DNA from: Halieaceae bacterium
GTDB lineage: Bacteria; Pseudomonadota; Gammaproteobacteria; Pseudomonadales; Halieaceae
Reading direction: 5' to 3'
DNA: 60,507 nucleotides
Assembly (NCBI GenBank): GCA_902520195.1
Contig: CABYND010000011.1
Coordinates: forward strand, 1 to 60,507
Position 1 is the stretch's first letter, and each line of letters begins with the position of its first letter. A program made the translations under genes and the position numbers. Under the pieces are notes generated by a model that did not search any database, was not told the origin of the DNA, and saw nothing but the letters and a program-made list of their open reading frames with translations. This document shows positions 8,998-27,867 of this stretch, one piece after another.

Positions 8998-9019
8998 AAA
9001 CAAACGCCCCTGTTTGCTT
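8998..9019 (+). promoter_or_regulatory. Island operator, copy e (TonB receptor promoter)
   Basis: Half-sites AAACAAAC (8998-9005) and GTTTGCTT (9012-9019) with a 6-base spacer: 15 of 16 positions fit AAACAARC-N6-GYTTGTTT. A TTGCTT (9014-9019) in the right half is followed 16 bases later by TAACCT (9036-9041), a plausible promoter for the receptor gene at 9099. The rest of the gap 8820-9098 shows nothing else clear. Confidence 0.6.
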
Positions 9020-9098
9020 ACGATGCCGTCTTGTGTAACCTCTCGCATGGTAGTCACATCGACCTTAATAAAACTAATAGTATTTTTGGAGTCATGCC

Positions 9099-11321
9099 AT
9101 GAGACAGCATTCCCTGAGAATGTCCCCTATTACGATTGCGATCGCAGCCACGTCGCTGGGGACAGTAGGTTCACTTCCGATCACGACAATCGCGCAAGCA
9201 CAGGACAGCTTGATTGAAGAAGTTGTTGTTACTGCTCGAAAGAGGCAGGAATCCCTTCAAGATGTTCCAGTAGCTGTGACGGCACTGACGCCAAACCAGC
9301 TGGAAAGAGGCTCTATTCAGCGCACGACCGATATCGACAAGATGGTGCCAAACGTCGAGCTGCACCAGACCTACATTGGTTCCGAATCTCTCAGCGCCAG
9401 CATCAGGGGTATTGGCTTTGACGACATCGAAAAATCGCTTGAGCCCACAGTGGGCGTGGCCGTCGATGGCGTGTTCATGGCTAGCAACTCCGGCGCCGTA
9501 TTCGACCTGTTCGACGTCGAATCTGTAGAGGTATTACGCGGACCTCAGGGTACCTTGTTTGGCCGGAATACGATTGGCGGTGTCATCAATGTTACGCGTA
9601 GCAAGCCCACGGGTGAATGGGGTATTAAGTTGCAGGGGACTTTCGGTGATCAGGACATGACTGACATCAAAGGCGTGCTAAATATGCCACTGGGCGCGAA
9701 CGGCGGTATCAAGCTCGCGTTCAAAAATATTGAGTCAGATTCTCACGTCTACAACACCACACTTAATGGCCGCAGGGAGTTCCGTGACTCCACCACTGTG
9801 TCAGCAACGATCCGATACGACTTCACCGAGAATACATCGGTGATGTTTACTTATGATGACTATGACCACGATACCATCGCCCCGGACAACCTGATGGTAG
9901 GCCCATTCCCAGAGCCATTGACGGGCTACCTTAACTCGCAGTCCAATGACTACAAGACCTCTCCGCAGCTCAACCCGCTGGAGGCGTATATGTGGGGCGA
10001 CAACTCCACCCTTCAAGTGACTCACAATTGGGCAGGGCACCAGTTCAAGTACACCATGGGCATCATGGACTACGAGGAAGAGGTGCATGAATCTTCGTGG
10101 GGCTCTTCAACGGTATTCTTTCCCGTCAATCGTGATCAGGAGTTCAAACAAACCTCGCACGAACTCCAGATCAGCTCCGATTCAGACGGGCCTTTGAATT
10201 ATGTCGCCGGCTTCTATTATCTTGAGGCGGATTCCTACATCACCTCAGGGCCCATTCAGCCCTTTACTGTAAATCACGAAGCCGAAGCGCAGGCGTTATA
10301 CGGCGAGCTGACCTATGATTTCAACGAGCAGTGGTCCATGACGCTTGGAGCGCGTTACACTGAAGAGGACAAGAACATGCAAACGTATTCTTGGCCACCA
10401 GTGGTCGGCGATGCAGATCGCATTGCTGGTAACATCGATCCAAGCGTGTTGCAGATGGCGGCGACACCAGAGTTCTCGGATGACAACCTGACGTACCGCG
10501 CTGTGATCCAGCGCAACTTCTCTAAGGGAATGGTCTACGCGTCATACTCGTCGGGCTTCCGTAGCGGCGGCTTCTTTAACCGCGGCACATCACCTGCTGA
10601 AGTGGAGCCCTACGACTCGGAGGAGGTCGACAGCATCGAAATCGGTCTGCGTTCCAACCCCACCGAGAACACGCAGCTCAATCTGACGTACTTCAACTCT
10701 GAATACACGGACATGCAACTTCCACTGATCACGCCTGCAAGCTTCCCGGAGTGCGGCAAAGGTGGAGCCGAGGAAGATGCCGCGGGAATCACCTGCTCTT
10801 TCATCGCAAACGTTGGTGAAACCAGCATGGACGGACTCGAGGTTGAGGGCATATGGATGCCTACGTCAGCGCTAACATTGCGAGCCGCGTTGGGCACGCT
10901 GGATGCCAGCTATGACTCTTATGATTATGCCGGTCGTGACATCGCAAACGTCGCCCAGCTGCTGTACGCCCCCGAACTGACCTGGAGCATCGGTGCAGAG
11001 CACATCTCTCAAGTGTTCGGCGGTGAACTCATCCTCACCGCCAACTACAGCTTCCAGGACGAGGTCTTCACTCAAACGCCATGGGCGATCTATGACCCTG
11101 CCACATTCCCCAAAATCACTATCGACGATTGGGAAAGTTTCGACGTTTCAGCGACCTACTTACGCGATACTGAAAATGGCACCTTCAAAGTAATCCTATA
11201 CGGTACTGACGTCTTGGAGGACGGTAATCGTGTTCAGCGTCGGTATACAACGGGCTCTTTTACATGGGCTGAGTTGGCTCCACGACAGCAGTTTGGCGTT
11301 ACTGTCGGTTACGAATTCTGA
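9099..11321 (+). CDS. TonB-dependent outer-membrane receptor
   Basis: A 740-residue outer-membrane receptor for energised uptake. An N-terminal signal peptide ends near AQA (about residue 33). The TonB box EEVVVTARKR follows, then the plug domain with SIRGIG, VAVDGVF and EVLRGPQGTLFGRNTIGGVINV, then a beta-barrel ending in a terminal aromatic residue (GYEF). GGAG lies 7 bases before the ATG. It is the first gene of the catabolic island and has the island operator upstream, so it may import the substrate of the pathway; the ligand cannot be deduced. A terminator follows. Confidence 0.93.
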   Translation: MRQHSLRMSPITIAIAATSLGTVGSLPITTIAQAQDSLIEEVVVTARKRQESLQDVPVAVTALTPNQLERGSIQRTTDIDKMVPNVELHQTYIGSESLSASIRGIGFDDIEKSLEPTVGVAVDGVFMASNSGAVFDLFDVESVEVLRGPQGTLFGRNTIGGVINVTRSKPTGEWGIKLQGTFGDQDMTDIKGVLNMPLGANGGIKLAFKNIESDSHVYNTTLNGRREFRDSTTVSATIRYDFTENTSVMFTYDDYDHDTIAPDNLMVGPFPEPLTGYLNSQSNDYKTSPQLNPLEAYMWGDNSTLQVTHNWAGHQFKYTMGIMDYEEEVHESSWGSSTVFFPVNRDQEFKQTSHELQISSDSDGPLNYVAGFYYLEADSYITSGPIQPFTVNHEAEAQALYGELTYDFNEQWSMTLGARYTEEDKNMQTYSWPPVVGDADRIAGNIDPSVLQMAATPEFSDDNLTYRAVIQRNFSKGMVYASYSSGFRSGGFFNRGTSPAEVEPYDSEEVDSIEIGLRSNPTENTQLNLTYFNSEYTDMQLPLITPASFPECGKGGAEEDAAGITCSFIANVGETSMDGLEVEGIWMPTSALTLRAALGTLDASYDSYDYAGRDIANVAQLLYAPELTWSIGAEHISQVFGGELILTANYSFQDEVFTQTPWAIYDPATFPKITIDDWESFDVSATYLRDTENGTFKVILYGTDVLEDGNRVQRRYTTGSFTWAELAPRQQFGVTVGYEF

Positions 11322-11344
11322 ACTGATCCTCGTACAATGCGAAA

Positions 11345-11366
11345 GCCACCTGCGGGTGGCTTTTTT
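11345..11366 (+). terminator. Rho-independent terminator after the TonB receptor
   Basis: Stem GCCACC / GGTGGC with loop TGCG, followed by six T residues (11361-11366). It separates the receptor from the downstream reductase, although read-through is possible. Confidence 0.85.
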
Positions 11367-11421
11367 GTGCCTGATCAGACACCCTCTTTCGCAGAAAACA
11401 GACATAACAAGGACGCCTGAG

Positions 11422-12423: not shown

Positions 12424-12440
12424 ACGCAATGCCAGCATCA

Positions 12441-13649
12441 CTAGCCAAGCGTCACCTTGATAGGAAGCGTATCGAGCCCCATGGTCGTGCCACCGTGACC
12501 GATGACGGCCTCCTCTGAAACGAGCTCGAGCGACGCGACGCGCTCGAAAAAGGCCTCCATTACGACCCGCACCTCCATCTTGGCCACATGCAGGCCAATG
12601 CATTTGTGCGCGCCGGCACCAAAAGCGTGGTGCTGGTTGCGCTCTTTCTTGCTGCGATCCGGATTAAACGTATCGGGATCGGCAAACGTTCGCTCGTCCC
12701 GGTCAGTGACAAAGCTTGGGATCACAATATTGTCGCCGGCGCGAAACTGGACTCCGTGGAACACCGTGTCCTGCTCACAAATGCGGTTCAGATTGATGAA
12801 AGCGTGCATGCGCAGAAACTCGTCGACCGAATCGGCAATCTTGCTGCAGTCCGACTTGAGGCTGTCAAATAGCGCTGCATCCCGCGCGAGATGGCGAATG
12901 ATGAAACTGAGCATGGTGGCCACGGTGTCGATGCTCGCAAGGAACAGCAGGTAGCAGATCGCGTGTACCTCTTCCAGAGAGAGCTTCTCTCCTTCCACAT
13001 CGACATTGAGCAGCATGTCGACAATGTCATCCTTCGGGTTATCCACGTGTTGTGTCACCACCTCAAAGAGATAACCGCCGATCTTCTCCCCGCAGGCGAT
13101 GCGCTCTTCCATGGTGGGTGCCCGATAAAAGCCCGTCTCCCAGGCATAAAATTCATCGAGGCGCTCAGGCTCCAATCCCAGCTGGCGAACAAACAGCCCC
13201 ATTGATATGGGCTTCGCGGCCTTCCACAAAAAATCAAACTCGCCGGTGGGCAAGACTTCGTCCAGCACCTCAGCGGCGAGCGCTTCTGCTCCTGTTTGCA
13301 AGCGCGCCACAGCTGTGGGCTCAAAAATGGGGAGTAAGAGACGGCGGTAACGCCGGTGCTCATGGGCTTCGCTCTCCAGCGGGATGAGTCGCGGGCGCTG
13401 CTCCATGTTGGCGGGGATGCCAATCGGAAATGAGCCAAACAATTCGGCGTTGCTGAGGACTTCCCGGGCCAATTCGTGTGAAGTGATCAGCCAATGGCCT
13501 CCGTTGTGGGGGGTATATACGATGTCCCGAGGGTCTTTTGCCAGTGAGTCAAGGAACAGCTGCTGGGGATCCGCGAAAAATCTGCTGTCGCCGACAATGT
13601 CAAAATCACTTTGTAACGCCTCAGGCACCTGGCTCAGTTGTGTCGGCAT
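12441..13649 (-). CDS. Cytochrome P450
   Basis: A 402-residue soluble bacterial P450 monooxygenase. The I-helix oxygen-binding motif is ASIDTV, the ExxR is E277-F-L-R280, and the haem-binding loop FGAGAHKCIG places the axial ligand at C350. The loop resembles CYP101/CYP111-type terpenoid hydroxylases, but I do not assign a family. It is last in the operon Rieske ferredoxin - MDR - P450. Its GGAG lies 6 bases before the ATG and overlaps the stop of the upstream MDR gene (3 bases apart), so translation is probably coupled. Likely role: hydroxylation of the island's substrate. Confidence 0.92.
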   Translation of the reverse strand: MPTQLSQVPEALQSDFDIVGDSRFFADPQQLFLDSLAKDPRDIVYTPHNGGHWLITSHELAREVLSNAELFGSFPIGIPANMEQRPRLIPLESEAHEHRRYRRLLLPIFEPTAVARLQTGAEALAAEVLDEVLPTGEFDFLWKAAKPISMGLFVRQLGLEPERLDEFYAWETGFYRAPTMEERIACGEKIGGYLFEVVTQHVDNPKDDIVDMLLNVDVEGEKLSLEEVHAICYLLFLASIDTVATMLSFIIRHLARDAALFDSLKSDCSKIADSVDEFLRMHAFINLNRICEQDTVFHGVQFRAGDNIVIPSFVTDRDERTFADPDTFNPDRSKKERNQHHAFGAGAHKCIGLHVAKMEVRVVMEAFFERVASLELVSEEAVIGHGGTTMGLDTLPIKVTLG

Positions 13650-13652
13650 CAG

Positions 13653-14657
13653 TTACTCCAGTCCAACTAGGCACTTGCCTCTGGATACCCCATGCATCAT
13701 GTCGCAGAACGCGCGAGGGGTCTCAGACAAGCCGCTATAAATCTGCTCATAGCTTTTCAGAGTGCCCCCAGCCAAACGATTCTGAAGATCTTTTAAAATC
13801 GCAGGAAACTCCTCCACGTGATCAGTCACCATGAACCCCTCCATACGAACTCGTTTGGTCACGAGCTCATAACTATTAAAGAGAGGCTCAACCAGCCCTT
13901 CGTACTCCGAAATCGCCCCCGAAAGGGCTATACGAGCACCCTCCTTAAGCTGCGCCATGACCGTATCCAGAACATGACCACCAACGTTATCGAAATAGAC
14001 ATCAATGCCATCTGGAACCGCATCGCGAAGGCTCTGATCAAGGTCCGGCTGTGTCTCGCGATCAATAACCAAATCGTAACCCACTTCCTCCACCAGCCAA
14101 TCGGCTTTGCTTCGCGTGCTGGTCAAGCCTACAACTCTGCATCCCTCAGCCTTAGCTAACTGACCGGCCACAGTGCCAACGGCACCACCAGCAGCGCTGA
14201 TCACCACGGTTTCACCGGCTCTGGGGTTACCGACTCTATAAAGACCCACCCAGGCCGTCATACCAGTCAGCCCAAGGGTCGACATATATTGGTGCAGCGG
14301 CACTCCGTCTGCTGGCGATAAGGTGTTACAGAGGTCTGAACCATCTAAAACACTGAACTGCTCCCAGGCGGTTCTAGCGCTCACAATGCACCCCACCGGA
14401 TAACCAGAGTTGCGGGACTCGATCACCTCTCCGATCACGACACCCTGAACAGGATCGCCTATCTGCATTCCTGGCAGATAATTATCTCCAGCGCCCTCAG
14501 CCATCCAGTGACGAAAACCAGCATCCAAGGACAACCACATATTTTTTGTACGAAAGAAGCCTTCTTCGCAAGGGACGCTAGGGCGCTCGACAAGCTGAAA
14601 GTCCGATTCAGTGACCCTCCCGACCGGATGTTTACTCAGCACTATTGCTTGATTCAT
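13653..14657 (-). CDS. Zinc-free MDR NAD(P)H-dependent reductase
   Basis: A 334-residue paralogue of the reductases at 11422 and 15196. It shows ISAAGGAVGTVAGQLAK, DVYFDNVGG and RIALSGAIS in the same order. It lies between the Rieske ferredoxin and the P450 in one leftward operon. The ribosome binding site is a poorly spaced GAGG. Family knowledge supports reduction of an activated C=C bond; the actual substrate is unknown. Confidence 0.85.
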   Translation of the reverse strand: MNQAIVLSKHPVGRVTESDFQLVERPSVPCEEGFFRTKNMWLSLDAGFRHWMAEGAGDNYLPGMQIGDPVQGVVIGEVIESRNSGYPVGCIVSARTAWEQFSVLDGSDLCNTLSPADGVPLHQYMSTLGLTGMTAWVGLYRVGNPRAGETVVISAAGGAVGTVAGQLAKAEGCRVVGLTSTRSKADWLVEEVGYDLVIDRETQPDLDQSLRDAVPDGIDVYFDNVGGHVLDTVMAQLKEGARIALSGAISEYEGLVEPLFNSYELVTKRVRMEGFMVTDHVEEFPAILKDLQNRLAGGTLKSYEQIYSGLSETPRAFCDMMHGVSRGKCLVGLE

Positions 14658-14728
14658 ATGCTGTTTTACCTCGTTTCAAAGTCGTTATTGTCAACGGCAC
14701 ATTCTTTTGCGACTTGCCGATAATCCCG

Positions 14729-15043
14729 TCAGTTGTGTAAGGCAACCTCGATCACGCCGTCGACAACCCGCACCTCATAAGTGAGTAGTGCCTCTCGAGT
14801 CAGCTGCCCCATGGGCGTGCCGTCGCGCAGATCAAAACGGACGCCATGTAGTGGGCAAGAAATGAAACAACCGCGCATGCGCCCACCCTCTAGCTCAGCC
14901 TCCTGATGCGTGCACCGATTTTCCACTGCGTAGAGCTCTCCCGCCGCGCGACAAATCAGCACCTTGCTACCGTTAACGGTCACAGCGCGACTGTCGTTGT
15001 TTGCAAGCTCGGCGTCGGCGAGGGCGGGATGAAAATCAGTCAC
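14729..15043 (-). CDS. Small Rieske-type [2Fe-2S] ferredoxin
   Basis: A 104-residue single-domain Rieske protein with both cluster-binding boxes: CTH (in NRCTHQEAELEGG) and CPLHG (in CFISCPLHGVRFDL). Such proteins carry electrons to Rieske oxygenases or sometimes to P450s. No ATG gives a sensible length; the GTG at 15043 has AGGAG 6 bases upstream and gives the typical N-terminus, whereas the open frame extends to 15127. It leads the operon with the MDR and P450 genes and is controlled from the divergent region with operator copy a. No ferredoxin reductase gene is visible in the window. Confidence 0.85.
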   Translation of the reverse strand: MTDFHPALADAELANNDSRAVTVNGSKVLICRAAGELYAVENRCTHQEAELEGGRMRGCFISCPLHGVRFDLRDGTPMGQLTREALLTYEVRVVDGVIEVALHN

Positions 15044-15120
15044 ACCAGTCTCCTGTTCGTTGAGTTGTTGCGGGCAAAATAGGCTCGGGACCGAAATGTT
15101 AGCACCGCGTTTTCCGAAAA

Positions 15121-15142
15121 AAACCATCTTGCTTGCTTATTT
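15121..15142 (+). promoter_or_regulatory. Island operator, copy a (divergent promoter region)
   Basis: Half-sites AAACCATC (15121-15128) and GCTTATTT (15135-15142), spacer 6; 13 of 16 positions fit AAACAARC-N6-GYTTGTTT. TTGCTT (15133-15138), then 17 bases, then TAGGCT (15156-15161) forms a rightward promoter for the reductase at 15196. The site lies between divergent operons starting at 15043 and 15196. Confidence 0.55.
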
Positions 15143-15195
15143 TTCATGCCCTCGCTAGGCTCTCGGCTCACCCATTTTTCCTCGCTGAGGTCAGC

Positions 15196-16206
15196 ATGAG
15201 CCACGGTAATAAACAACAATGGATTTTGGCAAAGCGCCCCGAGGGGATGCCGGACTCATCCGAGGTAATTCTTCAGGATGCGCCGATCCCAGAGACCGGG
15301 CCGGGCATGCTCCTCGTGAAAAACCACTACATCTCCCTCGATCCCGCGATTCGTGGCTGGATGTCTGATATCCCCAATTATTTACCGCCCATCCCGATCG
15401 GCGATCCAGTGCGGGCCACGGTGGTTGGCGAGGTGCTGGAGAGTGGCAGCGATAACATCAAAGCCGGTGACTTTGTGTTCGGTCTCGGCGGATGGGAGAC
15501 CCACAGCACCATCCCCGTCGACTTCTGCACCAGGGTGCCGGTCGACAATTCTTTCCCGCTTCACTATTACGTCAACATTCTCGGCGCCGTTGGGCTGACA
15601 CCCTACTTCGCCATCGCGGATGTTGGGCAAGCACAGCCCGGCCAGACCATGCTGATGAGTGCGGCCGCGGGCGCCGTGGGCTCTGTGGGCGGACAGATCG
15701 CGAAGCTCATGGGCTTGCGAGTCGTCGGCATCGCCGGCACAGAGGAGAAGTGTCAGTGGGTCGTCCACGAACTGGGCTTTGACGACTGCATTAACTATCG
15801 CGCGGCAGTTGACATGGAGGCGGCGATCCGCACCGCGTGCCCCGAGGGCGTCGATTTTTATTTCGACAATGTGGGCGGTAAGATTCTTGATGCGGCATTG
15901 CTCAACATGAACAAGGACTCCACGTTGCTTTTCTGCGGGACCATCAGCACCTACAACGCCACGGAACCCGTTCCTGGGCCCTACAACTACTGGCAGATTC
16001 TGGCGCGGACTATCACGGTCAAAGGCTATTTGGTTAGCGACCACTACCACAGGATCGAAGAGGGGCAAGCAGCCCTCAGTAAGTGGGTGAAAGATGACAA
16101 GATCAAGTTCCGCGAGCACATCAATGAGGGCATCGAGAACTGTCTGGATACCTACAACTTGCTCTTCACCGGCGGCAACGAAGGCAAGTTGATGCTGAAG
16201 CTGTAA
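15196..16206 (+). CDS. Zinc-free MDR NAD(P)H-dependent reductase
   Basis: A 336-residue third paralogue of the curcumin/2-alkenal reductase-like group. Visible signatures are MSAAAGAVGSVGGQIAKL, DFYFDNVGG and TLLFCGTIS. The frame opens at 15133, but the ATG at 15196 has GAGG 5 bases before it and matches the N-termini of the paralogues. It is transcribed alone from the divergent region with operator a, and ends before a strong bidirectional terminator. Confidence 0.86.
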   Translation: MSHGNKQQWILAKRPEGMPDSSEVILQDAPIPETGPGMLLVKNHYISLDPAIRGWMSDIPNYLPPIPIGDPVRATVVGEVLESGSDNIKAGDFVFGLGGWETHSTIPVDFCTRVPVDNSFPLHYYVNILGAVGLTPYFAIADVGQAQPGQTMLMSAAAGAVGSVGGQIAKLMGLRVVGIAGTEEKCQWVVHELGFDDCINYRAAVDMEAAIRTACPEGVDFYFDNVGGKILDAALLNMNKDSTLLFCGTISTYNATEPVPGPYNYWQILARTITVKGYLVSDHYHRIEEGQAALSKWVKDDKIKFREHINEGIENCLDTYNLLFTGGNEGKLMLKL

Positions 16207-16270
16207 GACGGACTCGCTCAATGGCTGTCGCGCGACACCCCCATAGAAAGTCGCGCGACTCACCCACATG

Positions 16271-16368: not shown

Positions 16369-17550
16369 TCAGAGCTCCGGTTTCGGAGCGTTAGTATCGC
16401 CGTCGCTGTACCATTTCACCCAGCGATGAAAATACTGGTTGCCCCGCTCATTGCGGCCAAACAACACGCTCTTCATCAGCCCGGTCTCCAAGCCCTGTTG
16501 TAGTTTCAGGCCGACGTTATAGTCCTCCTCCTGCACCACATTACGCAGCCAATCCGCCATCTCGATGCGCGCTGCCACGTCCTCCTCAGTCTCGGGTGGG
16601 GTCGGGTGGAGAAAATGCAAAATGGTAGTGTTTTCCATCGGACCCGGGCCCGGGATCATCTGTGCCACTTGCGTGATTTCCTCAGCTATGAAGATCGACA
16701 CGTTCGGGAAGAACAGCCGAATGAAGTCGAAGCCATTGGTTTCATGCTGCCACAGCTCGTCCCGGTCGACGTCGCCCAGTTCAAGCACGTTTTTTGCAGC
16801 AAACCCGACCAGCTGATGAGGCCCGTGTGCATCGTACTCCATCACGTTGGTAAACGTTCTGGGTTCGATGGTCTCTGGATGGGCGGCCTTGAAGTGGTAA
16901 CCCTCCAAGTAGCCGTCGTATGCAACCTTCCAATTGGGCCCGTGGATAATGCGGTGACCCACATAGGTCCACTGGTCCATGCCCTTCTTCGCCACATCAT
17001 CCATCATCGCACCGAGGTAGGCGCGAATGTCGACATCACTCTCGGCATCCAGCACCGCGAAGATCAGTCCACCCTCCTCGTGGCAGGGGAACTGCACCAG
17101 ATCCCGGGCACCCTCGCACACGTCGCCGAACTTCGGCGCATCGGCGATGGCACGCAGTGCGCCGTCGGACTTGAAGGTCCAACCATGGTAGGGGCAGCTG
17201 AACAATTTTTGATTGCCGCAGGGTTCTGAGGTGAGCTGCATACCGCGGTGGGTACAGACATTCATCAGAACCTTGGCCGAACCGTCTGCTTGCCGGGTGA
17301 TCAACAGCGGTATACCCAGGATCTCAAGCGAGCGAAAATCGCCCGGGTTAGGGATCTCTTGAGTTACCCCCACCAGTATTGGCAGGCTTTTAAAGATGCA
17401 GTTCATCTCACGCTGCCACTGCTCGGCATCCGTATATTCAGTGGAGGGCACCTCCATGGTGCGTTCTGCCCAATCCGTCGTGCCGTTGGCAACGTGATCT
17501 ATCAGGCGACCTGCCATGCGGCTGTATTGAATTTTGGTGTCTACCGTCAT
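16369..17550 (-). CDS. Rieske non-haem iron oxygenase, alpha subunit
   Basis: A 393-residue ring-hydroxylating-type oxygenase. The N-terminal Rieske domain has CTHRG (C99, H101) and CPYHGW (C119, H122). The catalytic domain has NWK followed by DGYLEGYHFKAAH, supplying the iron histidines H219 and H224, with a downstream acidic ligand probably in EEDYNVGL. Family members insert oxygen into aromatic, steroid or other hydrophobic substrates and need external ferredoxin and reductase. It follows the ABM-fold gene by 30 bases in a leftward operon controlled with operator b. No beta subunit gene is adjacent, so it may be an alpha-only enzyme. Confidence 0.9.
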   Translation of the reverse strand: MTVDTKIQYSRMAGRLIDHVANGTTDWAERTMEVPSTEYTDAEQWQREMNCIFKSLPILVGVTQEIPNPGDFRSLEILGIPLLITRQADGSAKVLMNVCTHRGMQLTSEPCGNQKLFSCPYHGWTFKSDGALRAIADAPKFGDVCEGARDLVQFPCHEEGGLIFAVLDAESDVDIRAYLGAMMDDVAKKGMDQWTYVGHRIIHGPNWKVAYDGYLEGYHFKAAHPETIEPRTFTNVMEYDAHGPHQLVGFAAKNVLELGDVDRDELWQHETNGFDFIRLFFPNVSIFIAEEITQVAQMIPGPGPMENTTILHFLHPTPPETEEDVAARIEMADWLRNVVQEEDYNVGLKLQQGLETGLMKSVLFGRNERGNQYFHRWVKWYSDGDTNAPKPEL

Positions 17551-17580
17551 CGTTTCTCTCTCTTATTTCCCAGTCTGCCG

Positions 17581-17898
17581 CTATTCAGGCATCACCAAGT
17601 CACCCACGGAGCTGACCTCGTAGCGACGTACTTCCATATCCAATATCTCAAGTGCGGCACAGGCCTCCAAAAAGGCCGCCACATGGGGCGTCTTGAGGTG
17701 TGCGTCCAAGTCCGCCTGCGATGCCCACTGCTCTGATACCCAAACGACACAAGGATCGGCGACGTCCACAGCAATACCATACCACTGGCATCCCGCCTCC
17801 TCGCGGGTTGCCGCCACCACGGCCTTGGCCGCTTCTGCATAAGCCGGTGCACTCTCTGCGCTGAGCTGAATCCGGACAATCACGCTAACTGTGCTCAT
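17581..17898 (-). CDS. ABM-fold (antibiotic biosynthesis monooxygenase-like) protein
   Basis: A 105-residue ferredoxin-like, dimeric alpha-beta-barrel protein: MSTVSVIVRIQL, a helix rich in alanine, EEAGCQWYGIAVD, WVSEQWASQADLDAHLKTPH. Such small proteins act as cofactor-free oxygenases, isomerases or haem handlers; the role here is unknown. The ATG at 17898 is preferred over the upstream opening at 17997 because homologues begin with this beta strand and a G-rich stretch precedes it. It is first in an operon with the Rieske oxygenase. Confidence 0.72.
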   Translation of the reverse strand: MSTVSVIVRIQLSAESAPAYAEAAKAVVAATREEAGCQWYGIAVDVADPCVVWVSEQWASQADLDAHLKTPHVAAFLEACAALEILDMEVRRYEVSSVGDLVMPE

Positions 17899-18202
17899 AT
17901 TGACCCCCAAATATGCCGCCTGACTCGACGCAAAAGCGTCGGTCTTACGACTATTCTGCACAGCCGCCAACCTAGGTTTCGCCACAGAAAAAGTCAAGCG
18001 TGCTTGCTTTTTTACAGCGCCCTACCTAACCTTGGGCGGCATCGCAGGACCACAATAATAACGTCATTGAACTATCGGGCGGGGCGTCATTACCTTTGAC
18101 CGGGGCAAAACCCCTGTCGAATGCAGAGAACTCGTCAGTGAACGGTGCCGACAGGTATTCCATTCCATCACCCCCCGAGAGTCAGGCTGAAGGAGACCAT
18201 CA
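17899..18202. promoter_or_regulatory. Divergent intergenic region with operator b
   Basis: A 304-base gap between the leftward ABM gene and the rightward SDR gene. It holds operator copy b (17992-18013) and a rightward promoter-like pair TTGCTT (18004-18009) and TAACCT (18027-18032) at 17-base spacing. Nothing else clear is seen in its second half apart from the AAGGAG of the SDR gene. Confidence 0.55.
17992..18013 (+). promoter_or_regulatory. Island operator, copy b
   Basis: Half-sites AGTCAAGC (17992-17999) and GCTTTTTT (18006-18013), spacer 6; 13 of 16 positions fit the consensus. It also contains a perfect short inverted repeat CAAGC-GT-GCTTG. Confidence 0.55.
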
Positions 18203-18985
18203 GTGAGTAACAGGTTGCAGGGCAAAGTTGCCCTCATTACCGGCGGCACGAACGGCATCGGTAAGGCCGCTGTGCAAGGCATGACCCGCGAAGGTGCGAA
18301 AGTCGTCTTTACCGGCAACAACATCGAGGCCGGCAATCAGATCGCCAGCGATACTGGCGCAACCTTCATCCAGCACGCGGTGCAGGACGTTGAGGGTTGG
18401 GAGGCAGTCAAAGCGGCCATTCGAGACCAGCACGGACGGCTGGACGTCACGTTTTCGAACGCGGGTACCAACGCGGGTGACAGCGATATCGAGACCGTCG
18501 AAGTCGATGCCTGGAAAAATCTCGTCGACATTAATTTGACGGGCATGATGCTCGCGATCAAAGCGAGCATCGAGCTCATGAAGGCTAGTCCCGATGGTAG
18601 CGGCGGCTCCATCATCCTGAACAGTTCCATTAACGGCATGCTCGCATTGGCGGGGGATGTCACCTACTCGACCACCAAAGGCGCGCTGCGCCTGCTGGCC
18701 AAATCCACTGCCGTGCATTTGGCGAAAACCAAAACCGGCATTCGCTGCAACTCGATCCACCCCGGGGTCATTCAAACGCCTTTAATTCAAGGCGCTATTG
18801 ATGGCGCGCCTGATCCTGCTGCCGCAAGAGGCATGCTGGAAGGCATTGCCCCCATGGGCCGGCTGGGCAGCATGGAAGAAATCGTGTCGCTGGTGATTTA
18901 CCTCGCCTCCGAGGAGGCGAAATTTGTGACAGGTTCAGAGATCGTGATCGATGGGGGCTCTACCGCCGGGCTGCCGGGCGTCTGA
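18203..18985 (+). CDS. Short-chain dehydrogenase/reductase (classical SDR)
   Basis: A 260-residue NAD(P)-dependent alcohol dehydrogenase or ketoreductase. The cofactor motif TGGTNGIG is at 13-20, NAG at 86-88, and the catalytic Ser (NSS, about 141-142), Tyr155 and Lys159 (YSTTK) are present. It starts with GTG, supported by AAGGAG 7 bases upstream. The gene is transcribed rightward from the divergent region with operator b and converges on the SnoaL gene. Substrate unknown; in this setting a hydroxy-intermediate of the island is likely. Confidence 0.88.
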   Translation: MSNRLQGKVALITGGTNGIGKAAVQGMTREGAKVVFTGNNIEAGNQIASDTGATFIQHAVQDVEGWEAVKAAIRDQHGRLDVTFSNAGTNAGDSDIETVEVDAWKNLVDINLTGMMLAIKASIELMKASPDGSGGSIILNSSINGMLALAGDVTYSTTKGALRLLAKSTAVHLAKTKTGIRCNSIHPGVIQTPLIQGAIDGAPDPAAARGMLEGIAPMGRLGSMEEIVSLVIYLASEEAKFVTGSEIVIDGGSTAGLPGV

Positions 18986-19000
18986 GACGCCCAATCAAGT

Positions 19001-19408: not shown

Positions 19409-19452
19409 CGTCAGTACTCCCTTTATCGCGCTCGCAATCGCTTCGCGCCGTT

Positions 19453-20217: not shown

Positions 20218-20285
20218 GTTTACCTCCTAGTTATCGACACTCACGACGAGCCCTGGCCTGAAGACACTTGGCTCTCGCAGTTGAT

Positions 20286-20972
20286 TCAAAGTTCACCATC
20301 GCCCGTATCAGCGAGATAGATCCGCTCCAGGTGGTCCGTCACCGTCTCAATCACGCGTTTGGCGCGCTGCTCCCGATTGGATGAGCGATGCGCTACGGCC
20401 ATGCCCTGCATCACAAATTGCACCAGATCGTGTGCCGCCTGCAGCGACTTCACCTGTTTCCAGTGCGGAAAGACCGAGCGCACCGTCTTCAAGAACTCCC
20501 GCTCAAAATCGCGCTCCACCTCGCCTACGGCCTCGGCCAGTTCCGGATCCGTGCGCGCCGCGCCCAGCAATTCCTGATAAGCGATAAATGACGGCAGATT
20601 GACGTACCTCCAGGCGTTTTCCACAGACACCCTAATCGCGGCGCGGGTCAGCGTTTGATCGGGAGAATCAATATCGGTCATCAGCGCGCGGTATTCGTTC
20701 AACCGTCTGACATGCAAATAGCCTACGACGGCATTCATCACAGCGGCGCGTGAAGGAAAGTGATGCATCATCGCGCCGCGGGAGACACTGGCTTCATCAG
20801 AGATCATCGCTGTTGTCGTATTGACGTAGCCATGTTCGACAAAGCAGCGCACGGCCGCCTCGAGAATAGCCTGACGGGTCAGCGCGCTCTTTTCCGCTTG
20901 CCAGCCATCGCCGACACGTCCCGCGGCGCTCCGTCGGCTGGACTTGGCGCGGCTCGCTTTCCTTGCTGTCAT
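20286..20972 (-). CDS. TetR/AcrR-family transcriptional regulator
   Basis: A 228-residue repressor-type regulator. A basic N-terminal arm (about 30 residues) precedes the TetR helix-turn-helix: LTRQAILEAAVRCFVEHGYVNTTTAMISDEASVSRGAMMHHF, given here by its key parts around residues 31-74. The C-terminal ligand and dimer domain is not recognised. It starts 80 bases from operator copy c. I infer that it recognises the 22-base palindrome found at five places in the island, and represses until a pathway intermediate, possibly an acyl-CoA, binds. That link is not proven by sequence. Confidence 0.88.
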   Translation of the reverse strand: MTARKASRAKSSRRSAAGRVGDGWQAEKSALTRQAILEAAVRCFVEHGYVNTTTAMISDEASVSRGAMMHHFPSRAAVMNAVVGYLHVRRLNEYRALMTDIDSPDQTLTRAAIRVSVENAWRYVNLPSFIAYQELLGAARTDPELAEAVGEVERDFEREFLKTVRSVFPHWKQVKSLQAAHDLVQFVMQGMAVAHRSSNREQRAKRVIETVTDHLERIYLADTGDGEL

Positions 20973-21051
20973 GCTGTTCCCCGTGATTCTTTCTGTGCTT
21001 GCAGGAGCGGCCCCAAGTGTGCGGCCACATCGTGAGTATGGCGTTCACGGC

Positions 21052-21073
21052 AAACAAACCGGCTTGCTTTTTT
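21052..21073 (+). promoter_or_regulatory. Island operator, copy c (next to the TetR gene)
   Basis: Half-sites AAACAAAC (21052-21059) and GCTTTTTT (21066-21073), spacer 6; 15 of 16 positions fit. TTGCTT (21064-21069) is followed after 18 bases by TAGACT (21088-21093), a rightward promoter for the DUF35-thiolase operon. It also lies 80 bases upstream of the TetR start, consistent with autoregulation. Confidence 0.6.
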
Positions 21074-21170
21074 TATCGGCAGTATCCTAGACTGATTTTT
21101 ATAAAGCGGCCAGCCTGAGCAGCTCTCAGCACTCTCACAAGCTGGTTCGCACAGTATTTCGGGGACCGCC

Positions 21171-21605
21171 ATGTCCAACGCCAAACCACTCCATGAGGGG
21201 CTGTTCAGCTGGCCGGCAGACACGCCTAGTCTGATCGGCACCCGCTGCCTCGACTGCGGAGAGCACGCGTTTCCAAGCCAATCCGCCTGCCGAGCCTGCT
21301 CGGGACAAAACATGGCCCCAGCTGATCTTGGCAGCGAGGGCACGCTGTGGACCTGGACGATACAGTCGTTTATGCCCAAAACCCCTTATCGTACTGACGA
21401 AACACCAGAGACTTTCACGCCCTACGGGGTAGGCTATATCGAGCTGGCTTGTGGCCTTAAAGTAGAGAGCCGCCTACGTGAGAATACGCCGGAGCAACTC
21501 ACCATTGGCATGCCGATGAAAATGGAAATGATCACCGTGCGCAAAGATGAAGAGGGTACTGACCTGTTGACCTTCCAGTTCTGCGCGGCAGAGGAGCAAC
21601 ACTGA
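21171..21605 (+). CDS. DUF35 / OB-fold zinc protein, thiolase partner
   Basis: A 144-residue protein with an N-terminal rubredoxin-like zinc ribbon (C26, C29, C40, C43) and a C-terminal OB-fold, the DUF35 arrangement. Family members bind thiolase-like partners, as in the Ltp2-ChsH2 aldolase complex of steroid side-chain degradation and in archaeal mevalonate enzymes. Its stop overlaps the thiolase start (TGATG), supporting a complex. It is first in the operon DUF35 - thiolase - Rieske oxygenase. Confidence 0.88.
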   Translation: MSNAKPLHEGLFSWPADTPSLIGTRCLDCGEHAFPSQSACRACSGQNMAPADLGSEGTLWTWTIQSFMPKTPYRTDETPETFTPYGVGYIELACGLKVESRLRENTPEQLTIGMPMKMEMITVRKDEEGTDLLTFQFCAAEEQH

Positions 21606-22747
21606 TGGACGTGGCAATTGTTGGACTGGGGATGCACCCCTTTGGCAGAACCCCCACTATGTCCGGCCTTGAGCAAGGTGCGGCCGCGGCCCGGGCAGCA
21701 CTTGCTGACGCAGGCACCGACTTCAAACGCATGGAGTTCGCCTTTGGCGGCAGCCAGGACAGCGGCAATGCCGACTCGCTGGTGAATTTACTGGGCCTCA
21801 CCGGACTTCAGTTCACCAACGTGGCAAACGGTTGCGCAACGGGAGGTAGCTCTCTTAACGCAGCCTACTCGGCGATCAAAAGTGGCCAATACGACGTCGG
21901 TTTGGTAGTTGGCTTCGACAAACATGACCGCGGTGCCTTCAACCCGCAGCCCGCTGACTGGGGACTCGACGACTGGTACGGCGAAACCGGCCTGATGCTG
22001 ACCACTCAATATTTCGGCATGAAGATTCAGCGCTACATGCACGACCACGGCATCTCACGGGAGACACTACTCCGCGTTGCCGAGAAAGCGTTCCGCAACG
22101 GCTCGCTGACCCCGACGGCGTGGCGGCAGACGGCGCTGTCGTGGGAAGAGATTGATAATGCACCTATGGTCAGTGAGCCGCTCAACAAATACATGTTTTG
22201 TTCGCCGGCTGAAGGCGGCTGCGCCCTGATCGTCTGCCGCGCCGATATCGCACACGAATTTCATCCACGCCCGGTCTATTTGAAAACCGCTGTGGTGCGC
22301 TCCAGAAACTACGGCAGTTTCGAGGTGTTCAGTCCTGCTCAACCGCCAGAGGTTGCAGATTCGCCGACGGTGACCGCCTCGCAGGCCGCTTTTGAGCTGG
22401 CAGGGGTGGGGCCGGAAGATATCGATGTCGCCCAACTTCAGGACACTGAGGTCGGCGCGGAAATCATGCACATGGCCGAGAACGGCTTTTGTGATCACGG
22501 CGATCAAGAACAATGGCTGGCCGACGGGATGACTGAAATTGGCGGCCGGCTGCCCGTCAATACTGATGGTGGCTGCCTCGCCAATGGCGAACCCGTTGGG
22601 GCGTCAGGGCTGAGACAGGTGCAAGAAATTTGCGTGCAACTACGGGGTGATGGCGGTGCACGACAGGTACCGAACGAGCCCAAAGTTGGCTATACCCACG
22701 TGTACGGTGCACCGGGCATCAGTGGCGTGAATATTCTCGCGCGCTGA
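21605..22747 (+). CDS. Thiolase-fold lipid-transfer/SCP-x-like enzyme (possible aldolase)
   Basis: A 380-residue thiolase-superfamily protein. The nucleophile-position cysteine is present (NVANGCATGG, C77). The usual GHP histidine loop reads NGEPVGASG with Glu329 in its place, and the C-terminal Cys-Gly-Gly motif is replaced by YGAPGISG. This pattern, together with the adjacent DUF35 gene, fits the Ltp-type retro-aldolases or other non-thiolytic members better than true thiolases. It would act on a CoA ester, possibly to release a short chain. Substrate unknown. Confidence 0.82.
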   Translation: MDVAIVGLGMHPFGRTPTMSGLEQGAAAARAALADAGTDFKRMEFAFGGSQDSGNADSLVNLLGLTGLQFTNVANGCATGGSSLNAAYSAIKSGQYDVGLVVGFDKHDRGAFNPQPADWGLDDWYGETGLMLTTQYFGMKIQRYMHDHGISRETLLRVAEKAFRNGSLTPTAWRQTALSWEEIDNAPMVSEPLNKYMFCSPAEGGCALIVCRADIAHEFHPRPVYLKTAVVRSRNYGSFEVFSPAQPPEVADSPTVTASQAAFELAGVGPEDIDVAQLQDTEVGAEIMHMAENGFCDHGDQEQWLADGMTEIGGRLPVNTDGGCLANGEPVGASGLRQVQEICVQLRGDGGARQVPNEPKVGYTHVYGAPGISGVNILAR

Positions 22748-22790
22748 GCGCGCGTTTCGTTAACTCAAGCGAAGTTCAAAAGGATTACCC

Positions 22791-24170
22791 ATGGCGAACG
22801 CAGAACAAAAGCAACAGGGCGATGGCGGCCGGTTCGTCGGCACGACCTGGCAGGACCTGCTTGACCTGGAAACCGTCGATGTCCCCGAATATCTGCGGAT
22901 TCAGAATAACCCTGATATGGGCGACGAGGATCTCTCTGTCGAGCGCTATATCAGTCAGGAGTTCTTCAACAAAGAGAAAGAAGAAATGTGGCCCCGTGTC
23001 TGGCAAATGGCCTGCCGCGAGGAAGAGATCCCCGAGCCGGGTGATCACCACGTCTACTGGATTATCGACCGCAGTGTGATCGTCACCCGAACACCATCAG
23101 GCAAGATCAAAGGCTACATTAATTCATGCCGACATCGCGGGAGATGTTTGCGCGACGAGTCGGGATCTGTCGATAAATTCCGCTGCCCCTTCCACGGCGC
23201 TACCTGGGATCTGGAAGGACAGTTCCAGGGCATCCCCAATCAGTGGGACTTTGAGCATATTGAAGGCCGCGACATGAGCCTGCCACAGGTCAAAGTCGCG
23301 ACTTGGGGTGGCTTCGTGTTCATCAATTTTGATCAGGATGCGCCACCCCTCGAAGACTACATGGATGTGCTGCCCGATCACTTCAAGCGCTTTCCATTAG
23401 AGGAGTACTTCACGGGTGTGCACGTACAACGCGTGATGAACTGCAACTGGAAAGTGGGCGCCGAGGCCTTCATGGAGTCCTGGCACACCGTGGAAACCCA
23501 CAAGCAAATCCTCACCTTCACCGGCGATGCCAACTCGCAGTACGACTGCTGGGGAGACAACGTTAGTCGATCAGTGACGCCAATGGGTGTGGCTAGCCCA
23601 CACCTGAGCGATGTCTCGGAAGAGACCATCACTCGCGACATTCTGAAACTTTCTGGTCGGATGGCGACAGATAGTGACGAAGGCGTCGAGATGAAAGACG
23701 GCCAAAGTGCGCGGGAGTATGTGGCGCAAATGAATCGGGAGATGTTTGAGGAAGCCGCAGGGGAGCAATTCGATGACCCAACGATGGCCGAGCTTCAGGA
23801 TGCGATTCTCTACAGCCTGTTCCCGAACTTCCAAGTCTGGATCGGCTACGGTGGCAACATCGTTTATCGCTTCTTGCCCAATGGAAATGACCCCGACAGC
23901 TGCATATTCGACGTGCGCATTCTGCTGCGATACCCCAAAGGTAGTGAGCGCCCGGCCGCAGTCCCCTGCACAGTGATACCCGCTGATCAGCCCTTTGCGT
24001 CCCACGAAGAGCTGGGCTCGCTGGGAGGGGTTTTTGATCAGGATGACGCCAACCTGCCGGCAGTACAGAAGGGTATGAAAAACTCAGCGACTGGTAAGGT
24101 CATTCTCGCCAGCTATCAGGAAAGCCGAATCCGGCATTTGCATCAGACCATCGACAAATACCTGAATTAA
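22791..24170 (+). CDS. Rieske non-haem iron oxygenase, alpha subunit (second type)
   Basis: A 459-residue oxygenase clearly different from the one at 16369. The Rieske ligands are CRHRG (C113, H115) and CPFHG (C132, H135). The mononuclear iron histidines are H232 and H237 in ESWHTVETH after NWK (220-221), with the carboxylate ligand probably in the QDDANLPAVQKG segment. AAAGGA lies 6 bases before the ATG, 43 bases after the thiolase gene, so it is the third gene of that operon. A terminator follows. It needs an external electron supply; the ferredoxin at 14729 is a candidate. Confidence 0.9.
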   Translation: MANAEQKQQGDGGRFVGTTWQDLLDLETVDVPEYLRIQNNPDMGDEDLSVERYISQEFFNKEKEEMWPRVWQMACREEEIPEPGDHHVYWIIDRSVIVTRTPSGKIKGYINSCRHRGRCLRDESGSVDKFRCPFHGATWDLEGQFQGIPNQWDFEHIEGRDMSLPQVKVATWGGFVFINFDQDAPPLEDYMDVLPDHFKRFPLEEYFTGVHVQRVMNCNWKVGAEAFMESWHTVETHKQILTFTGDANSQYDCWGDNVSRSVTPMGVASPHLSDVSEETITRDILKLSGRMATDSDEGVEMKDGQSAREYVAQMNREMFEEAAGEQFDDPTMAELQDAILYSLFPNFQVWIGYGGNIVYRFLPNGNDPDSCIFDVRILLRYPKGSERPAAVPCTVIPADQPFASHEELGSLGGVFDQDDANLPAVQKGMKNSATGKVILASYQESRIRHLHQTIDKYLN

Positions 24171-24202
24171 ACCAACCGGACTTACTGGCGACAAAAAACA
24201 AA

Positions 24203-24223
24203 AAGCCCCGCTAAGCGGGGCTT
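24203..24223. terminator. Terminator between convergent genes
   Basis: Perfect 9-base stem AAGCCCCGC / GCGGGGCTT with a TAA loop; an A-rich run on the left would serve as a T tract for leftward transcripts. It lies between the Rieske oxygenase and the convergent SnoaL gene. Confidence 0.8.
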
Positions 24224-24244
24224 ATCATTGCGCGGGTTGTTAAA

Positions 24245-24649
24245 TCACGCGGCGCTACTGTAGTGAACCCAGGCATCCACAATGGGCTTGGGGTCAAAGT
24301 AATAGGGGCGAATCTCGCACACTTTGCCGTCACGGAAGCGAAACAACTCTGCCAGTTGCGCGGAGGCAAGACTGGGATCTTCGAAGCGGAAAGAAATCAC
24401 ATTGATCACATAATCGCCGCCGACGGTCATCCCCTCGGGCTCAAGGTCAGCAACCTTCAATGTCCCGAAGACATGTGAGTACAAATCGCGCAGCGCTCTC
24501 TTGCCGCGGTACTCCCCAGCCATCGGAAGGCCCTCGGCCTCAATGATGAAAAAATCGTCGGTCAGCATGGTCTCGGCGGTATCAAAATCCCCGGCACCCG
24601 TTGTGGCATAGAGTTGCTGTACAAAAGCCATCTTCTCGTCATCGGTCAT
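24245..24649 (-). CDS. SnoaL-like (NTF2-fold) protein
   Basis: A 134-residue SnoaL-like protein: VQQLYATTGAGDFDTAETML, DDFFIIEAEGLPMAGEYRGK, then LAELFRFRDGKVCEIRPYYFDP, a typical ketosteroid-isomerase-like layout. Catalytic residues cannot be assigned. A G-rich ribosome binding site precedes the ATG. It follows the acyl-CoA dehydrogenase at 24760 in a leftward operon, 110 bases downstream. It may isomerise or hydrate a pathway intermediate, or have no catalytic role. Confidence 0.78.
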   Translation of the reverse strand: MTDDEKMAFVQQLYATTGAGDFDTAETMLTDDFFIIEAEGLPMAGEYRGKRALRDLYSHVFGTLKVADLEPEGMTVGGDYVINVISFRFEDPSLASAQLAELFRFRDGKVCEIRPYYFDPKPIVDAWVHYSSAA

Positions 24650-24759
24650 CGTCTTACCCCCCCTCTTTATGGTTGTCTGTATCGCTCTAGTGCGACTCCG
24701 CGGCCATGACTCAGAGTCACCGCCAGCGGTTTTAAATTCACCGCGCCAGCATCAAGCGA

Positions 24760-25989
24760 TTAACTCGACGCCTCAGCGTACTGCTGAATAATGCGTTTGC
24801 CGAGTGCCATTTGGTGCACCTCATCGGGACCATCCGCCTGACGACACCAGCGCGCATAGTTAAACTGCTCGGCCATACACCAATCCTCGGTCAGCCCGCC
24901 CGCGCCGTGCATTTGCATGCAGCGGTCGATAATCGCCTGAACCATCAGCGGCACGCTGATTTTAGTGGCTGAGATCAGTTCGATTGAGGGCTTCACACCG
25001 TGATGATCGATGTGCCAGCAGGTCTTGTGAACCAATAATCGCGCCATTTCCAGCTCGGCATAGCTCTTGGCGATGTTCTCGCGAATCGACTGATGCTGGC
25101 TCAGTTTTTTGCCAAAGGTTTCCCGGTCTTCGACGCGCTGACAGGCGAGCTCAAGGCAGCGCTGCCCGGCACCGATAAGACGCATGCAATGGTGCATGCG
25201 GCCGGGGGCCAGACGGCTCTGGGCAATCTCGAATCCCCTGCCCTCACCGAGCAGAAGATTTTCTGCGGGCACGCGAACATCAGTGAACGTCACCTCGGCA
25301 TGCCCAATCGGTGCGTCGTCATAGCCGAGCGTGGTCAGTGGGCGCAATACTTCAACACCCGGTGTGTCTTTGGGCACAAGAATCTGAGTTTGCTGCAAAT
25401 GTCGGTTCGGGTTCTCGGCATCGCTCTTACCCATGACGATAAAAATTTTGCAGCGTTCGTAGGGCGCACCGGTGATGAACCACTTATGACCATTCAGAAC
25501 CCATTCGTCACCGTCACGGCGGATATCGAGCTGGATATTGGTCGCATCACTGGAGGCAACCTGTGGCTCGGTCATGGCGTAGGAAGAGCGGATCTCTCCG
25601 GCCAGGAGCGGTGACAGCCAATCGACCCTCTGCGCTTCCGTGCCAAACTTCATCAGCACTTCCATATTGCCGGTGTCTGGCGCGTTGCAGTTGAACACCT
25701 CCGGCGACCATATTACGCGCCCCATTTCTTCAGCCAACGGCGCGTAATCCAGAAAGCTCATGCCGCCATGATCGCTGTACTCAGCGTATTCAGGTGGCAC
25801 AAAGAGATTCCAGAGCCCCGTGCTTCGGGCCTTGTCCTTTAAAGATTCGACGAGAGGCATGGACGCGAAGCGGTTGTCGGCGCCCGCAAGCGCCTCCTGA
25901 TGAGCCACCTCATTCGGATAGATGTGCTCTGCCATAAAGGCCTGTAACTCTGCCAGTATGCGCGTGCTCTTCTCACTCGGACCTATCAT
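24760..25989 (-). CDS. Acyl-CoA dehydrogenase, ACAD10/11-like
   Basis: A 409-residue FAD-dependent acyl-CoA dehydrogenase. The flavin and substrate signatures YAMTEPQVASSDATN and WFITGA are present, followed by RVPAENLLLGEGRGF and the end segment MQMHGAGGLTEDWCMA. The last motif ADGPDEVHQ takes the place of the YEGT segment, as in the ACAD10/11 group, which accepts unusual or branched acyl chains. It is transcribed leftward from the region with operator d, opposite the CoA synthetase. It probably introduces a double bond into a pathway acyl-CoA. Confidence 0.9.
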   Translation of the reverse strand: MIGPSEKSTRILAELQAFMAEHIYPNEVAHQEALAGADNRFASMPLVESLKDKARSTGLWNLFVPPEYAEYSDHGGMSFLDYAPLAEEMGRVIWSPEVFNCNAPDTGNMEVLMKFGTEAQRVDWLSPLLAGEIRSSYAMTEPQVASSDATNIQLDIRRDGDEWVLNGHKWFITGAPYERCKIFIVMGKSDAENPNRHLQQTQILVPKDTPGVEVLRPLTTLGYDDAPIGHAEVTFTDVRVPAENLLLGEGRGFEIAQSRLAPGRMHHCMRLIGAGQRCLELACQRVEDRETFGKKLSQHQSIRENIAKSYAELEMARLLVHKTCWHIDHHGVKPSIELISATKISVPLMVQAIIDRCMQMHGAGGLTEDWCMAEQFNYARWCRQADGPDEVHQMALGKRIIQQYAEASS

Positions 25990-26061
25990 GAAACCCCTCT
26001 GATACTGTGATCACCCGCTCTCCGCCGCCACACCCAGAACCAGGCTGTTCTGCAACGGGCA

Positions 26062-26083
26062 AAACAAGCGGGCTGGTTTGTTT
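26062..26083 (+). promoter_or_regulatory. Island operator, copy d (best match)
   Basis: Half-sites AAACAAGC (26062-26069) and GTTTGTTT (26076-26083), spacer 6; all 16 positions fit AAACAARC-N6-GYTTGTTT. TTGTTT (26078-26083), 16 bases, then TATATA (26100-26105) forms a rightward promoter for the CoA synthetase operon. The site lies between divergent genes starting at 25989 and 26184. Confidence 0.65.
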
Positions 26084-27842: not shown

Positions 27843-27867
27843 GCACCGGATCGAGAGGATACGAACC

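Follow-up and report, generated by a model that had tools for sequence, protein, structure and literature searches.

The subject here is a palindromic element, present five times in a 60,507-bp stretch of DNA from a Halieaceae bacterium (the window, a whole contig of a genome assembly of 2.14 Mb that is 69% complete), together with the gene for a TetR-family protein that lies among the copies. The elements are, with a probability of roughly four in five, the operators of this protein, which would silence the surrounding cluster of degradation genes until an intermediate releases it. The cluster, or island, is at ~9–31 kb of the window, and the nearest named relatives judged by the TetR protein are Luminiphilus and metagenome-assembled genomes of Halieaceae. 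The candidate operators and the gene for their proposed repressor are as follows.

8998..9015, plus strand: operator 1 (a degenerate 18-mer), 5′ of the TonB receptor gene; matrix score 15.2; promoter with −35 TTGCTT at 9014–9019 and −10 TAACCT at 9036–9041
15121..15138, plus strand: operator 2, between divergent Rieske ferredoxin and zinc-type reductase genes; matrix score 21.6; promoter with −35 TTGCTT at 15133–15138 and −10 TAGGCT at 15156–15161
17992..18009, plus strand: operator 3, between divergent ABM-Rieske oxygenase and short-chain dehydrogenase (SDR) genes; matrix score 13.7; rightward promoter with −35 TTGCTT at 18004–18009 and −10 TAACCT at 18027–18032; leftward promoter with −35 TTGACT (complement of 17992–17997) and −10 TAGGTT (complement of 17969–17974)
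21052..21069, plus strand: operator 4, between tetR and the divergent ChsH2-like–thiolase–Rieske operon; matrix score 20.4; promoter with −35 TTGCTT at 21064–21069 and −10 TAGACT at 21088–21093
26062..26079, plus strand: operator 5 (its 22-bp form is 26062–26083), between divergent acyl-CoA dehydrogenase and CoA ligase genes; matrix score 20.2; promoter with −35 TTGTTT at 26078–26083 and −10 TATATA at 26100–26105
20286..20972, minus strand: TetR-family regulator (228 aa), the proposed repressor; TetR_N (PF00440) at 52.1 bits against a cutoff of 24

The five elements and a matrix trained elsewhere

A preliminary description of the window gave the element as AAACAARC-N6-GYTTGTTT at 8998, 15121, 17992, 21052 and 26062. 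All five copies are present, with the half-site matches it had claimed, 15, 13, 13, 15 and 16 of 16 (1, 3, 3, 1 and 0 mismatches). Its placement of one copy in each of four divergent intergenic regions at 15–26 kb is borne out by a count of open reading frames and Pfam domains, the remaining copy is ~100 bp 5′ of the TonB receptor start, and the −10-like hexamers are where it had put them. It was wrong in having tetR 80 bp from the third copy, as the gene starts at 20972, 80 bp from the fourth (21052). When up to 3 mismatches are allowed, the N6 pattern has 9 matches in the window versus 0.45 expected, the maximum in 100 shuffles being 2. Two of the nine, at 8994 and 15117, are 4-bp-shifted overlaps of sites 1 and 2, and those at 32644 and 47161 fall within long open reading frames outside the island. 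Matches with 0–1 mismatch occur in the bacterium's own genome at just three places, all of them island sites. The loose pattern (at most 3 mismatches) is not specific genome-wide since it occurs there at 27 places versus 24 for a reversed control.

An independent test of the window came from a palindromic matrix trained by expectation maximisation (EM) on 30 tetR upstream regions from a scan of named genomes, mostly non-Luminiphilus (though L103, with 70% identity, could resemble Luminiphilus, and L127 and L128 are near duplicates). The element that emerged in these other genera is AAACAAtC-AT-GaTTGTTT, with an EM score of 551 versus 274–295 in ten shuffled sets (29 regions, L139 being mostly N and excluded). 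This matrix, trained elsewhere, does not hit random places equally: the five sites rank first among distinct places of the window, in the order 15121 (21.6), 21052 (20.4), 26062 (20.2), 8998 (15.2) and 17992 (13.7), and site 4 has in addition a 4-bp-shifted register at 15.9. Below these come unrelated places, the first two at 13.2 and 13.0. Shuffling the window 40 times gave best scores with a mean of 13.1 and a maximum of 17.1, and fourth-best scores with a mean of 9.1 and a maximum of 11.9.

Conservation in orthologous promoters and the company of tetR

Of 140 genomes of the family, 60 have a TetR match with an E value of 1e-20 or below, and in the same genus there are 25 besides the window's own. 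In all 28 close tetR loci (that of the window, those 25, and a single locus from each of two further genera of the family) AAACAA[TA]C-N2-G[CG]TTGCTTTTTTT is present and followed by a −10, with the flanking DNA, and some neighbours, varying. Conservation of the left half-site in orthologous promoters, whose absence the preliminary description had counted as refuting its proposal, is found. With the window included, and only loci with both flanking genes counted, a site scoring at least 17 is present in 28/28 of the tetR intergenic regions, in 19/19 of those between ferredoxin and reductase, and in 15/16 of those between acyl-CoA dehydrogenase and CoA ligase (the exception, L050, has N in an otherwise matching stretch). 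The region between the ABM-KshA and SDR genes has a site at 13 or above in 25/25 and at 17 or above in none, and in two the best register is the 4-bp-shifted one. Random 260-bp windows of the same loci, with the true sites kept, reach 17 in 4.1% of cases and 13 in 6.0%.

The TonB receptor promoter adds a contrast between orthologs and paralogs. Thirty receptor loci were collected; 16 were assessed by pattern and the other 14 by the matrix, 4 of the latter being fragments lacking upstream DNA. The site recurs 5′ of the receptor in 22/22 assessable orthologs and in 0/4 paralogs. AAACAAWC-N5-TGTTT is there in 16/16 loci (15 genomes, including the window, whose own copy is a degenerate version), and all 6 further orthologs (44–63% identity) carry an 18-mer at 21.9–26.6, whereas the four paralogs (31–33% identity) have none upstream, their scores being −3.5 to 0.4. 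One genome, G066, has two nearly identical receptor genes (L157 on contig C27 and L183 on contig C42) with upstream DNA identical over 170 bases, due to either recent duplication or binning redundancy.

Of 57 genomes of the genus 26 have the tetR-operator pattern (no more than 1 mismatch), exactly those with a TetR ortholog, and it is absent from the other 31; its reverse is found in none of the 57. The site-3 pattern is in 28, the same 26 plus G073 and G099, whose contigs end 0.2–0.6 kb past the site. Since operator and gene are in the same island, what this co-occurrence rules out is a scatter of copies by chance; it is not proof of binding.

Some sites are distant from tetR. In Luminiphilus syltensis (L. 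syltensis), whose genome is one 3.26-Mb contig, the site-bearing TonB receptor gene is ~1.5 Mb away from tetR, and in G059 and G062 the receptor is on a different contig from tetR. L. syltensis has 18-mers also within a divergent CoA ligase/SnoaL region, between genes for a TonB receptor and a LysR protein, and 45 bp before an open reading frame that is in frame toward a wax-ester-synthase C-terminal domain (stretches not joined). The CoA ligase downstream of two operators in this assembly (L204:6639-8257) is split into two open reading frames. In the bacterium's own genome strict 18-mers with at most 1 mismatch occur at 5 places, 3 of them in the island. As the reversed control also gives 3, there is no convincing additional site in this incomplete genome.

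The association extends to other genera, with sites accompanying orthologs in Zhongshania, Aestuariicella, Parahaliea, SAR92 and Shewanella. Of 22 other-genus loci (Zhongshania, Aestuariicella, Parahaliea, Pseudomaricurvus, SAR92/Porticoccaceae, Shewanella corallii at 37% identity, and others) 18 have at least two separate 18-mers scoring at least 17, and 4 have one (L103, L126, L131 and L133). A site scoring at least 17 is upstream of tetR in 50/57 orthologs of at least 50% identity, comprising 29/29 that were not used in training and 21/28 that were. The idea that homologs of ~40% identity go without the operator was dropped, since 5/13 (L073, L077, L081, L083 and L084) score 16.7–22.0 near the tetR start. 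In four of these homologs, from other Halieaceae (L077, L081, L083 and L084), a related operator half just 5′ of the tetR start continues into a palindrome of the type CTGATT..AA.CAG, which may be a diverged operator. A separate observation is that 11 SAR92/Porticoccaceae loci (L106, L113, L116, L120, L122, L126, L127, L129, L131, L132 and L133) share a second 18-mer, AAACAG....G.ATGTTT followed by a T-run, ~0.24–0.45 kb past the tetR stop; it is exactly AAACAGACATGCATGTTT in 4 and is 5′ of leftward SDR genes in most.

The protein itself is constant where contact with DNA would be expected, the recognition helix SRGAMMHHF being invariant across 31 aligned orthologs. An AlphaFold2 model has helices only (predicted local distance difference test score 87.4), and the 50 PDB matches listed by Foldseek include EthR2, Rv0078, GusR and QacR, the best at E 6e-06. 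With query-normalised template modelling scores to solved TetR proteins of merely 0.37–0.63, the class of ligand cannot be named from them.

Promoter overlap, operator geometry and the rival readings

The preliminary description had a TetR repressor covering the −35 boxes. This stands for sites 2, 3 and 4, where the −35 is within the right half, and needs amending for sites 1 and 5, where it is 4 bp farther out (the offset in the element is 12 or 16, and 16 at these two). A TA...T at 16–18 bp from the −35 occurs at random places with a frequency of 0.020 and accompanies the element in 28/28 tetR and 27/27 SDR copies and, in the first clade, in 12/12 reductase and 13/13 CoA ligase copies. Site 3 carries both divergent −35 boxes and is bidirectional in 27/27 copies: its left half AGTCAAGC is TTGACT on the opposite strand, with TA...T 16–18 bp off, and this double role may explain its deviation from the consensus. 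Of 12 copies of site 2, 11 have a leftward TGCTA..[AC]T, and at the CoA ligase operator there are 0/13 leftward promoters of the tested form.

Preservation of −35 and −10 in the classes counted is also what would be seen if the shared element were promoter only, recognised by a sigma factor with no operator involved. That is scarcely credible, since the left half beyond the −35 is equally conserved, the element has two offsets from the −35 (12 and 16), site 3 bears two opposed −35 boxes, and the element is found in other genera with different −10s. Chance, or pure coincidence with −35 sequence, is ruled out by the independent matrix and the left-half conservation in orthologs.

The 22-bp N6 symmetry of the preliminary description does not hold as the cross-genus form, which is 18 bp, AAACAAWC-N2-GWTTGTTT, though it survives as a tie in three Luminiphilus classes. 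With complementary pairs counted over each form's own span, N2 exceeds N6 for SDR/ABM (0.70 versus 0.56; 21 distinct sequences), TonB receptor (0.69 versus 0.62; 15), second-clade CoA ligase (0.78 versus 0.55; 3) and other genera (0.72 versus 0.57; 50 sequences, chosen with the N2 matrix). The N2/N6 ties are tetR (0.69/0.68; 23), reductase (0.59/0.59; 16) and first-clade CoA ligase (0.69/0.70; 12). EM in the other genera scored 600 and 601 at widths 20 and 22, versus 553, and so the operator may extend by one more A/T pair at both ends.

Within the half-sites AANC-AANC repeats with a 4-bp period, which accounts for the secondary registers and may hint at paired dimers. A pair of dimers would occupy an operator of ~22 bp (AANC AANC N2 GNTT GNTT plus xxTT), with N6 and N2 both in use; this is a variant of the proposal that the protein encoded at 20286–20972 binds the elements, and not exclusive of it. 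Besides the period, it would account for the N6 ties and for a +4 register above zero at all five sites of the window (3.5 to 15.9), and there is precedent in QacR, Ms6564 and CgmR, which bind as two dimers according to the part of PMC4486848 drawn on here. However, at width 22 the top-scoring EM run in other genera is centred on N2 and not on N6, and promoter spacer can account for the AT-rich tail to the right, which leaves the paired arrangement unlikely.

The most economical reading of these observations is steric repression by TetR and release by a pathway intermediate. A TetR dimer would sit on the 18-bp palindrome AAACAAWC-N2-GWTTGTTT; with the −35 of a sigma-70-like promoter in or abutting the right half of the operator and the −10 16–18 bp downstream, the bound dimer would exclude RNA polymerase. 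Silenced in this way would be the TonB receptor, the Rieske oxygenases, probably the P450, SDRs and reductase, and also the ChsH2-like/thiolase and CoA-ligase/acyl-CoA-dehydrogenase operons, so that uptake, oxygenase, CoA-ligase and thiolase operons are probably repressed together. What would release the repressor is an intermediate in the breakdown of the compound; it may be a CoA thioester or a free acid. The sequences themselves show the sites, their positions and conservation, the overlap with promoters and the co-occurrence with tetR, whereas binding, repression, ligand and substrate are what we infer. That the protein activates instead of repressing is very improbable: LuxR is both activator and repressor, so the TetR family is not solely one of repressors (title of PMC2628434), but overlap or abutment of operator and −35 at all five window sites is as expected for steric repression.

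Several observations weigh against TetR repression through these sites. Sites 1 (15.2) and 3 (13.7) are weak alone, being inside the range of the shuffled best scores; it is orthologous conservation, not window statistics, that secures them. In some genomes the reversed control of the degenerate 18-mer (1 mismatch) has hits too. The forward/reverse counts of six genomes, each versus the control, are 3/2 versus 2/0 in the bacterium's own, 6/8 versus 0/0 in L. syltensis, 6/5 versus 3/5 in G062, and 4/5 versus 1/1, 4/4 versus 3/1 and 2/4 versus 0/0 in three others. Of the 8 second-clade reductase copies 2 are without a −10 at the expected spacing (6 have one), and homologs of ~34% identity on two Novosphingobium plasmids (2 of 12 records) are among genes partly of the same kinds, with no operator. 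Two further points bear on tetR itself. Its operator has 0/28 leftward promoters of the tested form, which leaves autorepression through covering of the −35 unproven, and 7/57 orthologs have no site of at least 17 at tetR (L115, L123, L126, L131, L132, L133 and L139, from records named Porticoccaceae, HTCC2207/SAR92, Pseudomonadales or Cellvibrionales; L139 is mostly N). Both of these would fit a different regulator, encoded elsewhere, to which the palindromes belong and of which tetR is merely a target. Against this, the operator matches the TetR ortholog exactly in 26/57 genomes with none in the 31 others (which presence of the island alone could also give), tetR keeps the site next to it even when a different gene lies on the far side of the site, and a palindrome suits a TetR dimer. 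A regulator from elsewhere is distinctly less probable than the local TetR protein, and indeed improbable.

Island genes and comparison with known systems

The island encodes, for uptake and oxidation, a TonB receptor, zinc-type reductases, a CYP101-like P450, a Rieske ferredoxin and an ABM-domain protein. It also has two Rieske oxygenase alpha subunits, SDRs, SnoaL-like proteins and the TetR protein, and its CoA genes are for a ChsH2-like protein, an SCP2-type thiolase, three acyl-CoA dehydrogenases and a CoA ligase. Those beside the operators are listed here. The starts at GTG 15043 (from a Shine-Dalgarno-like stretch) and ATG 15196 were chosen in this analysis.

9099..11321, plus strand: TonB-dependent receptor (PF00593, PF07715), target of operator 1
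14729..15043, minus strand: Rieske ferredoxin, start codon GTG 15043, first gene of a leftward operon
13653..14657 and 12441..13649, minus strand: zinc-type reductase and CYP101-like P450 of the same leftward operon
15196..16206, plus strand: zinc-type NADPH-dependent reductase (curcumin-reductase-like, below the model cutoff), target of operator 2
16369..17898, minus strand: the two leftward targets of operator 3, an ABM-domain protein and the 393-aa alpha subunit of a Rieske oxygenase
18203..18985, plus strand: short-chain dehydrogenase, rightward target of operator 3
21171..24170, plus strand: ChsH2-like (OB/zinc ribbon) protein, SCP2-type thiolase and Rieske oxygenase (459 aa), targets of operator 4
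24760..25989, minus strand: acyl-CoA dehydrogenase, leftward of operator 5, which no leftward promoter of the tested form overlaps
26184..31008, plus strand: CoA ligase, two acyl-CoA dehydrogenases and short-chain dehydrogenase, targets of operator 5

The targets named in this list are as predicted from position. The island is flanked at 31604–38447 by helicase, acyltransferase, Hsp33 and PEPCK genes, and their counterparts in L. syltensis (L204:12007-18933) have the same length and order, as seen with no alignment; the likeness suggests a conserved chromosomal place for the island.

The substrate may be a cyclic isoprenoid or a steroid side chain, to judge from the SCP2-type thiolase and ChsH2-like protein together with the Rieske oxygenases and the CYP101-like P450. 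In the part of PMC4810484 drawn on, a genome survey counts the OM60 clade among putative steroid degraders. A much wider proposal is that one TetR lineage with a fixed recognition helix acts as master switch over a so far undescribed pathway that degrades a cyclic isoprenoid- or steroid-like compound in OM60/NOR5, SAR92, Zhongshania, Aestuariicella and Shewanella, and would control dispersed uptake, oxygenase, thiolase and CoA-ligase genes, and in L. syltensis wax-ester-synthase genes, through cooperating dimers on an AANC-repeat operator with one or two −35 boxes. As a whole this is speculative and rather doubtful. What is gained short of it is that oxygenase and CoA genes of marine Halieaceae and kin, until now merely listed as uncharacterised, are brought together as a defined regulon that has a testable operator and a candidate for its switch. 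The matrix is a means to call distant members of the pathway, and it splits site-bearing TonB receptor orthologs from site-less paralogs.

While TetR regulons are already known as a type, this regulon and its operator are undescribed in the open-licence literature searched: as the preliminary description supposed, none is described in the PMC papers among the matches listed. The operator of PsrA is C/GAAAC-N2-4-GTTTG/C, which resembles the centre of the present operator. PMC2958839, as far as excerpted, has nothing on the PsrA motif. Like the protein proposed here, PsrA is a gammaproteobacterial TetR repressor over acyl-CoA metabolism and fatty-acid degradation (PMC5343134 and PMC3223726, each as far as excerpted). 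The targets here differ in being oxygenases, a TonB receptor and an SCP2-type thiolase, and identity with PsrA is ruled out by 26.3 bits to NCBIfam NF053516 against a cutoff of 300.

QacR resembles the present case in having overlapping registers within one operator, but its half-sites are 15 bp with a 6-bp spacer (PMC4486848, in the sections seen), and here only registers read from sequence are compared. A TetR protein 34% identical is encoded on Novosphingobium aromaticivorans pNL2 beside a Rieske/P450/SnoaL/TonB cluster. In that stretch (L214:1-14000) its neighbours are a TonB receptor, a P450, SDRs, SnoaL/NTF2-like proteins and three Rieske oxygenases, and there is no recognisable 18-mer, the best score being 9.7. 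Intergenic DNA of L214 and L215 has a CTGCCGGTTTTAT stretch in common.

The closest in organisation is KstR2 of actinobacterial cholesterol catabolism. Its operator is different, a 14-bp AnCAAGnnCTTGnT with closer half-sites (PMC3068626, the part used here), versus CAA and TTG 6 bp apart in an 18-bp element, and as a palindromic pattern it has no match in the 60,507-base window. The likeness, going by the same part of PMC3068626, is in plan: KstR2 too is a TetR-type repressor with a palindromic operator and a catabolic cluster, and its small regulon is at divergent promoters around its own gene.

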